A program made the translations under genes and the position numbers. DNA of 41,231 nucleotides, taken from IMG/VR virus record IMGVR_UViG_3300025030_000224, positions 1-41,231 of that record. The stretch is one strand, 5' to 3'. The DNA is from a virus. Of this stretch, positions 1,074-41,057 are shown piece after piece; the stretch's first letter is position 1, and each line of letters starts with the position of its first letter. Under the pieces are notes generated by a model. It searched no databases, was not told where the DNA came from, and saw only the letters and a list, made by a program, of their open reading frames with translations.

Positions 1074-1571
1074 CTATTCCCTCTTTTTCCGGCGGGTTGC
1101 TGGTTCAGTTTTTGGCTTTTTATCCTTTTTTTCTGCCAGGAGACCTGCGAGCAATTTTCTTTCTTCGGCATATCTCAGGATATCCCGCTTTTGTTGTACT
1201 GTCATGGTAGCTAGAAGCTCGTTGATGATTTTACTCACCATTTCCGGATGAATATGCGCTTCCGGTTCATCAATAAGAATTAATGGCTCCTTCACTCCCG
1301 CTATATATCTTGCGCTGATCCGTAACTCATCATCGTAGTTGATCTGTTCTCGCGCCTTCTTCGCACCGGTCAGTATCCATTCCAACTCCAAATCAAATTC
1401 CCTACAAAAAGAAATCACCTGCTCATAGGGGATCGTATTCCTGAGCTTCCAGACGGCCAGCTTTTTAGGCGGCACCTTGAGTAAACGTGCGATATCAGCA
1501 TCATTTTTGGCGTCAGTCACCAGTTTGATGCGATCGAGTATCTCAATTATTGAAATGACTACATTTTGCAA
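1074..1571 (-). CDS. CI-type phage repressor with Walker-B-like insert
   Basis: A 165-aa protein. Residues ~7-70 match the helix-turn-helix N-terminal domain of the phage CI repressor family: an IIEILDRIKL helix, DADIARLLKV, then KLAVWKLRNTIPYEQVISFC and EWILTGA. It is the likely lysogeny repressor, in the usual position left of the early operon and facing away from it. The only in-frame start before this domain is a TTG at 1571, preceded by AGGGAA; an ATG seven bases inside is in another frame. Residues 97-110 read LILIDEPEAHIHPE, the Walker B/His signature of ABC and AAA-type ATPases, yet no Walker A is present. The C-terminus is very basic. Whether the insert binds nucleotide or is a relic is unknown. 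Confidence 0.8.
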   Translation of the reverse strand: MQNVVISIIEILDRIKLVTDAKNDADIARLLKVPPKKLAVWKLRNTIPYEQVISFCREFDLELEWILTGAKKAREQINYDDELRISARYIAGVKEPLILIDEPEAHIHPEMVSKIINELLATMTVQQKRDILRYAEERKLLAGLLAEKKDKKPKTEPATRRKKRE

Positions 1572-1610
1572 TTAAATTCCCTTGACAATGACTACAAAAT
1601 GAAATACTTT
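1554..1610 (+). promoter_or_regulatory. Early promoter with overlapping repeat operators
   Basis: TTGACA at 1582-1587, a 17-base spacer and TACTTT at 1605-1610 form a good sigma-70-type promoter facing the Ner-like gene and transposase operon. The decamer AATGACTACA occurs at 1554-1563 and 1587-1596, exactly 33 bases apart, with the second copy inside the promoter spacer and the first inside the repressor's 5' end. An inverted CATTTTG / CAAAATG pair flanks the interval. These are plausible repressor or Ner operators controlling both directions. Confidence 0.65.
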
Positions 1611-1688
1611 CGCGGTGCAGTTAATTACTGATTACGTTTTGAAAGGTTAACCATTTTGGCCGTAAACGGCCGTATTGAGAGGTGTCCC

Positions 1689-2678: not shown

Positions 2679-2975
2679 ATGGCTGAAACAACGTACAGAC
2701 GGATTGAGGCGGTAGCAAAGGCGATCGCGATCCTTGAGTTCCTCGCCACCCAGAAGCATCCGGTGGGCGGGCCGGAGATTGCCAGGGCAGTGGATATGCC
2801 GGTGGCAACGGTGATGAGCCAGATCATCACGCTGCAGGATCACAACTTCGTGCGCAACCTGGGCGCGGGGTTCGAGCTCGGCATGGGCGCGGCACTGATC
2901 TGGGCTCGCAAGAAATCGCTCCTCGAGGGTGAGCGGTCCCGCATAGACAACGAAATTACCAAACTGGAGGGCTGA
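2679..2975 (+). CDS. IclR-type winged-helix DNA-binding protein
   Basis: A 98-aa protein almost entirely made of an IclR-like winged helix-turn-helix: AVAKAIAILEFLATQKHPVG, then PEIARAVDMPVATVMSQIITL and a wing (HNFVRNLGAGFELG). Full IclR regulators are ~250 aa with an effector domain; here only the DNA-binding half is present, followed by a short charged helix (residues 78-97). It starts 11 bases after the previous gene and is followed by the next one after a single base, so it belongs to the early operon just upstream of the transposase. Probable early DNA-binding regulator. Confidence 0.65.
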   Translation: MAETTYRRIEAVAKAIAILEFLATQKHPVGGPEIARAVDMPVATVMSQIITLQDHNFVRNLGAGFELGMGAALIWARKKSLLEGERSRIDNEITKLEG

Positions 2976-34725: not shown

Positions 34726-35003
34726 ACATCCTTGAACTGACCGCCGGCGACACCAAACCGACGAAATGCCAATACACCGAGAACCTGACAGGCCACGTCA
34801 TCGTGCTGCAGATCGGCTACCCGACCCCGCTGCAAAAGGTAGCCGTCATCACCTCAGCGATCGGCGGGACATTCGAGTTTCCGTGGGCGATCAACGACCT
34901 GCAGCAGGGCGAGTGGGACGCCGACCTGATCATCACAGATGCAGACGGAAAGATGGAGACCACCGATAAATTCAGGATCAACATCGAGGGGAGGATAGCA
35001 TGA
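34722..35003 (+). CDS. Small beta-rich protein, baseplate-type domain
   Basis: A 93-aa protein (MNILELTAGDTKPTKCQYTE, then VAVITSAIGGTFEFPWAIND and GEWDADLIITDADGKM). The start-to-end strand pattern resembles the N-terminal attachment domain of phage upper-baseplate or receptor-binding proteins (BppU type), often used to mount fibres on tails. It overlaps both neighbours by four bases, so it is translated together with the Thr-rich protein and may anchor it. Confidence 0.5.
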   Translation: MNILELTAGDTKPTKCQYTENLTGHVIVLQIGYPTPLQKVAVITSAIGGTFEFPWAINDLQQGEWDADLIITDADGKMETTDKFRINIEGRIA

Positions 35004-36514
35004 GCCGGATGGTAGCGATCAGCTCTTCACGCCCGTCCGTGAGCATTGACCCGCGCACCGGGATCTTGATGGTTCGGGGATTCGGTAGTGAGCCCGGCCT
35101 GACAGTCGGCGAAGCCTATAGCCAGGCAGAGGAAAACGCTTTTTTTGCCGCCGGGTACAGCATGGTGATACGTATGGATCTGCTGGTAGCAACCACAACT
35201 ACAGCCGCGCCTGGTACCACGACCGCAGTGCCGACTACTACGACTACGACTGCTGCGCCTGGGACCACAACGACCACAACGGCAGGGCCGGATACAGTGC
35301 CAAACTCCTTCAGTTTTAGCGACGTGAACAACATCTCGGTGAGCACACTATACATATCCGACACTATAACCATCTCTGGTATTAATGCGGCTGCCGCGAT
35401 TTCAATTGCCGGGAATGGAGGGGAATACCGGGTGAACGGCGGTGCCTGGAGGAGTACCTCAAGCACGGTAAGCAATGGCGACACTGTGACTCTCCGTATG
35501 ACATCGTCTCCGTTCAATTCCGCAATAAGCAGCACCACACTGACCATCGGCACTGTATCTGACGTTTGGAGCATGACGACCGAAACTGCGGCAACGACCA
35601 CTACGGCAGCGCCGACGACTACGACTGCCGCTCCGACAACCACGACTACGACCGCTGCTCCGACAACTACGACCACCACGACAACCACTGTCGCTCCGAA
35701 TGTCGCGCCCACTTCGACGATCGTATTCAGCGACTTCTCTGAACCTGTTACGACCACGACTACTGCGGCGCCGACAACTACGACCACGACGGCAGCTCCG
35801 ACCACGACTACCACCACGGCGGCTCCGACAACCACGACTACGACCGCGGCTCCGACAACTACGACTGCTGCTCCGACAACTACGACCACCACGACAACCA
35901 CTGTCGCTCCGAATGTCGCGCCCACTTCGACGATCGTATTCAGCGACTTCTCTGAACCTGTTACGACCACAACTACTGCGGCGCCGACAACTACGACCAC
36001 GACGGCAGCTCCGACCACGACTACGGCGGCTCCAACGACTACGACCACCACGACCACTACTACGACTACCGCAGCGCCGACAACGACGACCACGACTACT
36101 ACGGCCGCGCCAAATGTGGCCCCGACATCAACTATAGTTTTTAGTGATTTCAGCGAGTCTGGCGGCACTACTACGACAACATCAGCGCCGACGACAACCA
36201 CGACCGCTGCGCCTGGCGACATAACGCCAAATACTTTCAGTTTCAATCCTGCTTATGATCAGAATTTCAGCACTCTGATCGAGTCGAACTCTATTGCCAT
36301 TGCGGGCTTGAGTTCCACTGCGGCTGTCTCCATCTCCGGAGGCTCGTACTCGAAAAATGGCGGTGCCTATGTCAGTTCGGCGGGTACCGTAACTAACGGT
36401 GATACCTTGAAGGTAAGGGTTCTAACTTCCGGTGGCTATGATGAAACGACCACTGCAACGCTCACTGTCGGAACGTTTTCAGCTCCTTTCAGTGCAACGA
36501 CATATTACGAATAG
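35000..36514 (+). CDS. Thr-rich mucin-like adhesin or fibre protein
   Basis: A 504-aa protein. Residues ~1-62 form a small N-terminal domain (SVSIDPRTGILMVRGFGSEP). Two similar Ig-like beta domains flank the middle: ~100-195 (NSFSFSDVNNISVSTLYISD) and ~407-504 (NTFSFNPAYDQNFSTLIESN). Between and before them lie long Thr tracts of TTTTTAAP type, with the block APNVAPTSTIVFSDFSE repeated three times. Such Thr/Pro/Ala tracts look like mucin O-glycosylation targets and stiff linkers. There is no signal peptide, so it should be part of the virion. Probable phage adhesin and likely substrate of the 39381 enzyme. Confidence 0.6.
   Translation: MSRMVAISSSRPSVSIDPRTGILMVRGFGSEPGLTVGEAYSQAEENAFFAAGYSMVIRMDLLVATTTTAAPGTTTAVPTTTTTTAAPGTTTTTTAGPDTVPNSFSFSDVNNISVSTLYISDTITISGINAAAAISIAGNGGEYRVNGGAWRSTSSTVSNGDTVTLRMTSSPFNSAISSTTLTIGTVSDVWSMTTETAATTTTAAPTTTTAAPTTTTTTAAPTTTTTTTTTVAPNVAPTSTIVFSDFSEPVTTTTTAAPTTTTTTAAPTTTTTTAAPTTTTTTAAPTTTTAAPTTTTTTTTTVAPNVAPTSTIVFSDFSEPVTTTTTAAPTTTTTTAAPTTTTAAPTTTTTTTTTTTTAAPTTTTTTTTAAPNVAPTSTIVFSDFSESGGTTTTTSAPTTTTTAAPGDITPNTFSFNPAYDQNFSTLIESNSIAIAGLSSTAAVSISGGSYSKNGGAYVSSAGTVTNGDTLKVRVLTSGGYDETTTATLTVGTFSAPFSATTYYE
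35654..36024 (+). repeat. Duplicated Thr-codon repeats
   Basis: A 104-bp segment (35654-35757) recurs without change at 35867-35970, 213 bases on; with one mismatch the match continues ~50 bases further. The unit encodes Thr/Ala/Pro tracts and the block ending TSTIVFSDFSEPV; a third, diverged copy of this block lies near 36110-36165. The exact match points to recent duplication, and the 213-bp offset equals 71 codons, so the frame is kept. Confidence 0.8.
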
Positions 36515-37593: not shown

Positions 37594-39393
37594 ATGAAAT
37601 GTATCCTTGCGTTATTTGCTGTGCTGTTTGCACTGGCGGGATGTGGAATAACCATCCCCATTTTGACCAATGACGTAATAAAACCACGCTATGAGGATAA
37701 ACTGATGCAAACTTTCTTAGCTAATGACTCAGGTATAACATATATCGGCAGGTGGACTGATACCATGTCAGGGGGCAGCCCAATAAGAGTTGCTATCTCC
37801 AGTGGGTGTCGCATTAGGCTCCGATTTACTGGTACCTCTTTGGCGCTCAACTTTGCGGTATGGGCCTCTCCAACTGGACCAAACTTTATTGAATATGCCG
37901 TAGACGGTGGAGCTTGGATCAGAACATCTATCAATGGCCTTTCGACGCTGTCACTGGCCTCTGGATTACCCGATACGGAACATACCGTCGAAATCTGGTC
38001 TATTGCCGGTAGCTATTATAGGTGGGACACTTTAGAAGGGGTCCGGGTCAAAAGTTTTAGTATCGATGACGGCCGGACTATATCACCATGGCCCACTGGC
38101 CTCCCTAAAATGTTGACTCTGGGAGATAGTATCGCTAATGGTGACCTAGTGCTCGCGGACGGCGGCACTAGCGGACGTTTATCTGTTTCAAATCAGCTGG
38201 CAGCGATATTAGGTTATGAGAACTGGAACCATGCCGCCGGGGGGACAGGGTTCTACGGTACTCAACCAGCTAATGGATACCCTGCCACTCAGATCAATTA
38301 CCTCTATAAGTCCGCAGGGGTAGTACACTCTGATCCTGTATTTGACGTTGTGTTCATTGAAGCGATCCAAAATGATGGCACTGCTAACAGGTACGCTGAA
38401 TACACTACTTTGCTGTCTCGAATTATAGCGGATCAACCGACAGCTAAAATTTTCTGCCTGGGTCTAATTTTCCCCGACCCGCAGGAACAGACCTCAGTTC
38501 AGGCCGCAGCAGCCGCTTATGGGGCCACCTATTTGGCGACTAGCGGATGGGTCTTTTCCCACCCCGAAGCTATCAATCAAAAACATCCCGACGTCCAAGG
38601 CGCTGCTACTATCGCGGCGTATATCAAGCCGACTGTTGAATCTGTGACAGGAGTGATCTCTACAACCACTACTGGTGCTCCGACCACTACGACCACGACC
38701 ACCGCGGCGCCAACCACGACCAGCGCGGCTCCGACCACGACGACAGCGTCTCCGACTACTACCACGACCACCACGGTGGCACCGGTAATTGAAGCCCCAG
38801 TTCTAACCACCGTAGTCGCTGGCAACGGCCAGATCACCGTTAACTGGACCCACAGCGGCGCCAACTTTTTCACAGCATACCTCTCCACCGAGGCCGCCCC
38901 GACCTCTACAAGTTACGAACGTCGGGTGCAGAATCTGCATACTTCTGCTCGCAGCTACACTTTTACAGCTCTAGCAAATGGTGATCTCTGCTATGTAAGA
39001 GTGTCGGCAATGATCAACGGGCTCGCTAGTAGTTTAAGTAATACTTTGACTGCCACTCCCGTCGGGGCAACTACAACCGCATCTCCCACTACCACGTCAG
39101 CGCCGACCACGACAACAACGCCTGCTCCAGCCACGACCACTGGTGCTCCGGCCACAACGACTACTACGACAACGTCCACTCCAACCACCACTACGACAGC
39201 ACCGACCACGACCACGACTCTGCCTCCCGTCAAGCCGATCCGCTTCAGTATTGGAGGCTACACCATTCAGATAACCAAAAACGAATCAGGCTCCCTCCGG
39301 ATTAAGACTTCCGATGGGGTGATCGGCGTCTCTTTGAACGACACCGGTCCGATAAAGATCAAAACAAGCGCGGGGACAAAATGCCTAGGTTAA
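37594..39393 (+). CDS. SGNH hydrolase lipoprotein with Thr-rich linkers
   Basis: A 599-aa protein. A lipobox (FALAGC, Cys-17) indicates export and lipid attachment. Residues ~40-155 form a jelly-roll N-terminal domain as in carbohydrate esterase family 2. Residues ~170-350 are an SGNH/GDSL hydrolase: LTLGDSIANG (Ser-179), GGTG (~216) and IQND (~260); the His is in NQKHPD (His-331), but the usual Asp three residues before it is Asn-328. Then come Thr/Pro/Ala tracts (~354-400), a fibronectin III domain (~400-487), more Thr tracts and a ~55-residue C-terminal domain. It may deacetylate host surface sugars. The next gene starts inside its last codons. Confidence 0.7.
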   Translation: MKCILALFAVLFALAGCGITIPILTNDVIKPRYEDKLMQTFLANDSGITYIGRWTDTMSGGSPIRVAISSGCRIRLRFTGTSLALNFAVWASPTGPNFIEYAVDGGAWIRTSINGLSTLSLASGLPDTEHTVEIWSIAGSYYRWDTLEGVRVKSFSIDDGRTISPWPTGLPKMLTLGDSIANGDLVLADGGTSGRLSVSNQLAAILGYENWNHAAGGTGFYGTQPANGYPATQINYLYKSAGVVHSDPVFDVVFIEAIQNDGTANRYAEYTTLLSRIIADQPTAKIFCLGLIFPDPQEQTSVQAAAAAYGATYLATSGWVFSHPEAINQKHPDVQGAATIAAYIKPTVESVTGVISTTTTGAPTTTTTTTAAPTTTSAAPTTTTASPTTTTTTTVAPVIEAPVLTTVVAGNGQITVNWTHSGANFFTAYLSTEAAPTSTSYERRVQNLHTSARSYTFTALANGDLCYVRVSAMINGLASSLSNTLTATPVGATTTASPTTTSAPTTTTTPAPATTTGAPATTTTTTTSTPTTTTTAPTTTTTLPPVKPIRFSIGGYTIQITKNESGSLRIKTSDGVIGVSLNDTGPIKIKTSAGTKCLG

Positions 39394-41057
39394 CCATAGG
39401 AATGGCGTCATACAACAACTTCCAAGAGGTCTGGTTCACTCTCCAGGCGCTGCGCATGTACCATGACCTTACCGACACCGAGGTATTGGTTATCGACAAC
39501 TACGGCGACGACACCCTGCGCGACTTCATCGCCAGTTGGCTGAGCCCGCAGGTGCGTTACGAGCGGTACACCGAGCGCCAGGGGACCGCCGCCCCTCGCG
39601 ACCAGGTATTTGCCCAAGCCCGAGGAGAGTGGGTCATGTGCATCGACTCCCACGTTATGCTTCCCCCTGGCGCAGTAGCCCGGTTCCGGGAATGGTGCGC
39701 CGCACATCCGGATTGCCGGGACCTGCTGCAAGGTCCGATGCTCTACGATGATCTTTCCCAAATGGCAGACGCGTTTCAGGATAAGTGGGAAGGCAGCATG
39801 TGGGGGACCTGGCGCGGAGCGCAAGTCTCGACTGAGCAGGAACCATACGAGATAGAGATGATGGGCCTCGGCCTCTTTGCCTGTCGCAAAGACGCCTGGC
39901 TTGGCTTTAATAAGGATCACCGCGGTTTCGGTGCCGAGGAAGGATACATCCACACCAAATTCCGGCAAGCCGGCCAGCGCACCCTTTGTCTCCCCTTTCT
40001 GCGCTGGGTGCATTACTTCCATACCAGGAACGGGAAGGTGACTTGTCCTTACACTCCTACTCAGGAAGACAAGATCCACAACTACCTAACCGGTTTTGCC
40101 GAGCTTGGCCTAGATCCCGCCCCAGTCTACCAGCACTTCGGGATAACCCCGCCGCCGCGAGCCGTGAAGATCACAAACATCCAGATCGACCCCAACGCGA
40201 ACTGTGGCAGTAAATGCTGGTTTTGCCCGGTGCGTTATACCATGCGACCAGCAGGGCAAATCATGCCTCAGCCCCTCTTCGAGCGTCTCCTGGACGGCAT
40301 ACTCGACGGCATCCAGCAGGGAAGCATTGCGGAAGACTTCACCCTCTGGCTTAGCTCCTACAACGACATCCTCCTAGATCCGCTTCTTGCCGAGCGTCTG
40401 CAGGCCCTTCGCTCCCGCGGTATGAAATTCTGTTGCCTGACTAACGGGATCGGATTGCTGAAGCACCACGAGCTTTTGCACGAGTACCGCGACGTGGTCG
40501 TATGCTACTCGGTCGATCTCCCAGCAGGCAATGCGGAGAGCTACGCCGCCCACACCCTGAACTCGGCAGCGACGTTTGATCAGATCATCAAAGGCCTACG
40601 AGCCCTGCACGCGCTCGACCCCGCCCATTACAGCCAAGCCGTCCACGTCGGAGTCAACGGGGCCCACGATGCCGACTGGAGCCGGAAGCAGATCCTCTAT
40701 GACCTCCTTGAAGGAGATACCGACCGACAGCTCCATGAGTTGCAGACCCTGCTCCCGATATATCCACGCGTCGAGGCGATGAGGCCCCTCTGTGATCGCG
40801 CTGGGCACCTGAGTCAGCACGCCATCGATAACGCCGTCGATCGTCCCGGAACAGCAGGCTGCAATCGCCTGACCGAATGGCTGCACGTCAACAGTTTTGG
40901 TCAAGCTTACACCTGCTGCCAAGACTACCTGGAGGAGCACAAGTTTGCAGATCTGAGTGAGCTGACAGTTCACGAAGCACTCACATCCGCTCCATCTGAG
41001 CTGTTTGATCGGACACGGCGAGAACTCTGCAGCAAGTGCACGTTTAGCGCGCAATAG
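39381..41057 (+). CDS. Glycosyltransferase / radical-SAM SPASM fusion
   Basis: A 558-aa two-domain enzyme. Residues ~1-235 are a GT-A glycosyltransferase: TIGMASYNNF, TEVLVIDNYGDD, then MCIDSHVMLP with Asp-89 and His-91 (DxH motif as in mucin-type polypeptide GalNAc transferases), and GFGAEEGYIHTKFRQAG near 182-198 as the acceptor/base region. Residues ~258-558 are a radical-SAM enzyme: CGSKCWFC (C275, C279, C282) binds the SAM cluster; CNRL, TCCQ and CSKC at the end (C494, C512, C513, C550, C553) form a SPASM-like domain. It overlaps the SGNH gene by 13 bases. I infer it modifies Thr-rich tracts of phage proteins; substrate and sugar are unknown. Confidence 0.7.
   Translation: MPRLTIGMASYNNFQEVWFTLQALRMYHDLTDTEVLVIDNYGDDTLRDFIASWLSPQVRYERYTERQGTAAPRDQVFAQARGEWVMCIDSHVMLPPGAVARFREWCAAHPDCRDLLQGPMLYDDLSQMADAFQDKWEGSMWGTWRGAQVSTEQEPYEIEMMGLGLFACRKDAWLGFNKDHRGFGAEEGYIHTKFRQAGQRTLCLPFLRWVHYFHTRNGKVTCPYTPTQEDKIHNYLTGFAELGLDPAPVYQHFGITPPPRAVKITNIQIDPNANCGSKCWFCPVRYTMRPAGQIMPQPLFERLLDGILDGIQQGSIAEDFTLWLSSYNDILLDPLLAERLQALRSRGMKFCCLTNGIGLLKHHELLHEYRDVVVCYSVDLPAGNAESYAAHTLNSAATFDQIIKGLRALHALDPAHYSQAVHVGVNGAHDADWSRKQILYDLLEGDTDRQLHELQTLLPIYPRVEAMRPLCDRAGHLSQHAIDNAVDRPGTAGCNRLTEWLHVNSFGQAYTCCQDYLEEHKFADLSELTVHEALTSAPSELFDRTRRELCSKCTFSAQ

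Follow-up and report, generated by a model that had tools for sequence, protein, structure and literature searches.

In a Mu-like transposable phage, the immunity repressor carries a 14-residue segment, LILIDEPEAHIHPE (residues 97-110), that resembles the Walker B motif of OLD/AbiEii-type ATPases together with the His segment after it. The segment is probably (at roughly two chances in three) a lone resemblance that came about by drift or chance in the fast-evolving linker of an ordinary repressor. Functional or domain-level explanations are unlikely because the motif is unconserved and the residues flanking it give no ATPase signal. The phage DNA analysed, referred to here as the window, comprises positions 1 to 41,231 of IMG/VR record IMGVR_UViG_3300025030_000224 (41,231 nucleotides), and the features discussed are listed in Table 1.

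Table 1. Location of the repressor gene, its parts and the operator-like repeats in the window
Feature	Position	Strand	Basis or remark
CI-type repressor gene	1074..1571	-	165 aa, TTG start, AAGGGA ahead; PF07022 E=6.8e-10
HTH DNA-binding domain, residues 11-73	1353..1541	-	PF07022; AlphaFold2 pLDDT about 86-96
Variable linker, predicted disordered, residues 72-108	1248..1358	-	pLDDT<50 over 72-106; unconserved in relatives
Walker-B/His-like segment LILIDEPEAHIHPE, residues 97-110	1242..1283	-	Profile matches, lost on masking
C-terminal helices, residues 109-150, common to relatives	1122..1247	-	Family HMM; helices 109-122, 125-150
Operator-like repeat 1, AATGACTACATTTTG	1554..1568	+	Repeat search
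Operator-like repeat 2, AATGACTACAAAATG	1587..1601	+	Repeat search; L002 counterparts
Operator-like repeat 3, ACTGATTACGTTTTG	1627..1641	+	Repeat search; 3 mismatches, weakest

An ordinary repressor with candidate operators

The N-terminal domain belongs to the Phage_CI_repr family (PF07022), scoring 39.6 bits against a curated cut-off of 22. The best Foldseek match in the PDB, CI of phage 186, is weak (E=0.012) and agrees with the HTH assignment. Like 186 CI and other CI-type repressors, the protein pairs an HTH with a divergent early region bearing repeated operator-like sites, which in the window are predicted. In contrast to 186 CI, it possesses neither the 186-type C-terminal domain nor an S24 peptidase domain; instead, AlphaFold2, run on an alignment of 13 rows, predicts a confident HTH, a disordered stretch and two helices. 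The GC content of the gene (~44%, against 58.5% for the window) is about even along its length.

The same layout is found in the short HTH-linker-helix repressors L042-L054 from temperate phages, which share with the window repressor both the HTH and a C-terminal module of the form LL..M/LD...RD.LR.AEEK. An HMM built from the C-terminal modules of these relatives gives the window protein 23.1 bits; 2000 shuffled versions of residues 111-165 all stay below that value (best shuffle 12.0), and the alignment, with small gaps only, starts around residue 93 and ends near 141. Judged by this profile, residues 111-141 correspond to the C-terminal helices of the repressor family itself and not to ATPase sequence. 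The helices probably serve as an oligomerisation module.

Three direct repeats resembling AATGACTACAWWWTG are found at the start codon and upstream of it, beginning at 1554, 1587 and 1627. Two of the three are exact and cluster by the start codon, although three matches of this kind are unremarkable across the entire window. The closest relative, L002, has two counterparts in the same place and relative orientation, separated by 31 bp compared with 33 bp in the window, and the repeats are good candidates for operators read by a recognition helix that both repressors share. Their position at the start codon and the conservation of two of them in the closest relative point to an ordinary HTH-linker-helix repressor, the immunity repressor of its phage. 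Within the early region, a small protein with an IclR-type HTH is encoded at 2679-2975 (+), and a similar 98-aa gene occupies a comparable place in L002.

The HTH, the predicted linker disorder, the common C-terminal module and the conserved operator-like repeats are computed features. From them we infer a simple mode of action in which the CI-type HTH would repress the divergent early genes by binding repeated operators in the interval that separates them from the repressor gene. A flexible linker would follow, and then the two C-terminal helices, probably holding the multimer together. The 14-residue motif probably arose by drift within the unconstrained linker.

A likeness limited to fourteen residues

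The sequence-only reading had described a Walker-B-like segment in a CI-type repressor that has no Walker A. Both observations are borne out: profile searches show the Walker B and His segment of PF13304 at residues 97-110, which correspond exactly to window positions 1242-1283, and no Walker A P-loop occurs anywhere in the 165-aa ORF. Pfam AAA_21 (PF13304) matches residues 91-121 with E=1.4e-5, covering about 31 of its 304 profile positions, at a score of 25.7 bits that falls under the gathering threshold of 27 and so does not make the protein a member of the family. AAA_15 is matched at E=0.0028, and among NCBIfam models the retron Eco8 effector profile reaches E=1.2e-5. The PADLOC library, whose content of defence proteins only limits what it means that its best matches are defence ATPases, gives AriA as the top match (E=5.4e-7) along with many GajA, PtuA and Old models, some of them reaching across residues 82-120. 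For a single protein, matches of this strength lie well above chance. These dozens of ATPase family matches are not independent, as all of them read one short motif.

Masking defines how far the likeness extends. Replacing residues 97-110 with X leaves the protein with zero Pfam or PADLOC matches up to E=10, and thus no similarity to PF13304 beyond the motif. Residues 70-96 alone have no match in either library, and the same is true of residues 111-165 alone. A 21-residue peptide spanning the motif retains most of the ATPase matches. The ATPase likeness therefore depends on the 14-residue motif, to which neighbouring helix residues add weak support. An apparent alignment of residues 61-118 to the ABC signature and Walker B of 4u00 is not significant (E=0.14).

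Compared with OLD/AbiEii/AriA-type ATPases (PF13304, PF13175), the repressor shares 14 residues of Walker B and His segment but lacks Walker A, the signature motif and any Toprim or nuclease domain, and no P-loop fold is predicted. Lacking both Walker A and a P-loop fold, it is considered to have no ATPase function. Of the earlier proposal of a gene-fusion relic, the part concerning a sizeable piece of ATPase is rejected as unsupported, since masking residues 97-110 abolishes all matches and the downstream helices are those of the repressor family. As had been proposed, a DNA-binding domain and a linker precede the motif; the linker is unconserved, and the residues after the motif form the family's helix module.

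Variation of the linker among relatives

Relatives were gathered from IMG/VR by protein pattern and by way of this phage's transposase. Closest among the repressors is L002/L036, with 55% identity over residues 1-78 followed by a long low-complexity linker. In L042-L054 the linker spans about 20 residues and has no Walker-B-like motif, unlike that of the window repressor. Linkers of the relatives thus vary in both sequence and length. Some consist of acidic/Pro strings such as VLTIEPATQNFSPADL, which can be aligned with LILIDEPEAHIHPEMV without large gaps. The 14-residue segment itself covers part of the linker as well as the first C-terminal helix's N-cap, and on this alignment IDEPEAHIHPEM is not remote from relatives' acidic/Pro linkers that end in a helix N-cap.

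In a scan of the 13-member family, ATPase matches were confined to the window protein (0/12 relatives), though the HTH is kept in all. The 12 relatives scanned have unrelated residues where the window repressor has the motif, an outcome that the sequence-only reading had named as telling against it; the weak profile match named alongside was not found. The pattern WKxR(N/G)T(V/I)PYE yields one further repressor, L176, which also has no Walker-B-like motif. With 8-mer patterns, the sole repressor relative in viral contigs is again L002 (55% in the HTH), and an exact 8-mer scan of bacterial genomes returned real ATPases only and no repressor relative. None of these searches found a repressor homologue more than 55% identical in the HTH, and thus none over 60% identical that might document the motif arising step by step.

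Other phages bear on the surroundings of the gene. Those with a 56-68% identical transposase (L007-L026) mostly encode non-homologous repressors, and on this comparison the immunity module is swapped among Mu-like relatives. A further contig, L175, encodes a 100% identical MuB-like protein and stops just short of the repressor side; it probably represents this phage, or one almost identical to it, from another sample. Towards the right end, the window phage encodes tail-end proteins in which long low-complexity runs of TTTTTAAPTTTT type occur (35000-36514 and 37594-39393, both +) and, as an unusual cargo gene, a 558-aa protein with glycosyltransferase family 2, radical SAM and SPASM domains (39381-41057, +).

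Chance and the alternatives

By composition, the odds of four hydrophobic residues followed by DEPExHxHP are about 2.4e-12 per position. The DEPExHxHP codon pattern occurs in 114 stretches of IMG/VR, and among the 80 of these that were listed, 77 resemble ATPases or fragments and the other three are stray frames without the hydrophobic strand. The full motif outside ATPases was thus not seen elsewhere among those 80. By these counts it is rare in a non-ATPase, and a database of this kind would be expected to contain fewer than one instance. Given such low odds, an origin by chance needs the many proteins and motifs of a genome scan. The motif was indeed a post hoc choice among the many conceivable ones in a large number of proteins, and some protein among 1e5 would reach the per-protein Pfam value of E=1.4e-5 by chance. 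Of the three origins first proposed for the segment (fusion relic, interaction mimic, chance convergence), chance is favoured.

A short illegitimate insertion, in which the linker received a copy of 14-30 codons from an OLD/AbiEii-type ATPase gene, is possible but unlikely. Such a captured fragment would suit the profile E-values of 1.4e-5 to 5e-7, the profiles that cover residues 82-120 and a linker about 20 residues longer than that of L042-L054; a genuine phage ATPase, L058, has the similar IAGEPRIILIDEPEAFLHP. The flanks, however, carry no ATPase signal once the motif is masked, and the linker of the closest relative is even longer and unrelated in sequence. A search of phage and plasmid DNA for a donor gave no significant match to an ATPase gene (lowest E-value 0.04, spanning about 40 bp), and a motif scan of Mu-like relatives found no ATPase gene of this type adjoining the repressor from which the motif could have come.

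Lower still is the probability of a functional mimic, in which the linker peptide would bind, titrate or sense a defence ATPase of the host or a prophage (AriA, GajA, PtuA, Old) and so tie repression to defence status. An exposed disordered linker could present a peptide, and the top profile matches are defence ATPases, drawn from a library that holds nothing else. No relative conserves the segment, however, and an isolated Walker B peptide is an unlikely ligand, as Walker B forms a buried strand in ATPases. A literature search of limited coverage returned nothing relevant, and the interaction proposed earlier gained no positive evidence. The fuller claim, that the linker mimics Walker B of an OLD/AriA-type ATPase and by binding or titrating it couples lysogeny to host defence, is very improbable. 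Equally doubtful is that an S24/LexA-type cleavage region has left a remnant here: the AG of residues 91-92 and the EPLIL that follows recall AAGEPLL of LexA, and related phages such as L015 have an HTH+S24-like repressor, both by eye only, but no S24 match appears at E up to 10 with the whole protein or residues 70-96 alone, which rejects both a cleavage-site relic and membership among cleavable repressors.

Were the linker a mimic after all, it would constitute a new route for a prophage repressor to talk to defence ATPases. Lying in the linker of an ordinary immunity repressor, the segment illustrates that a 14-residue motif can give E-values of 1e-5 to 1e-7 over dozens of ATPase profiles without domain homology.
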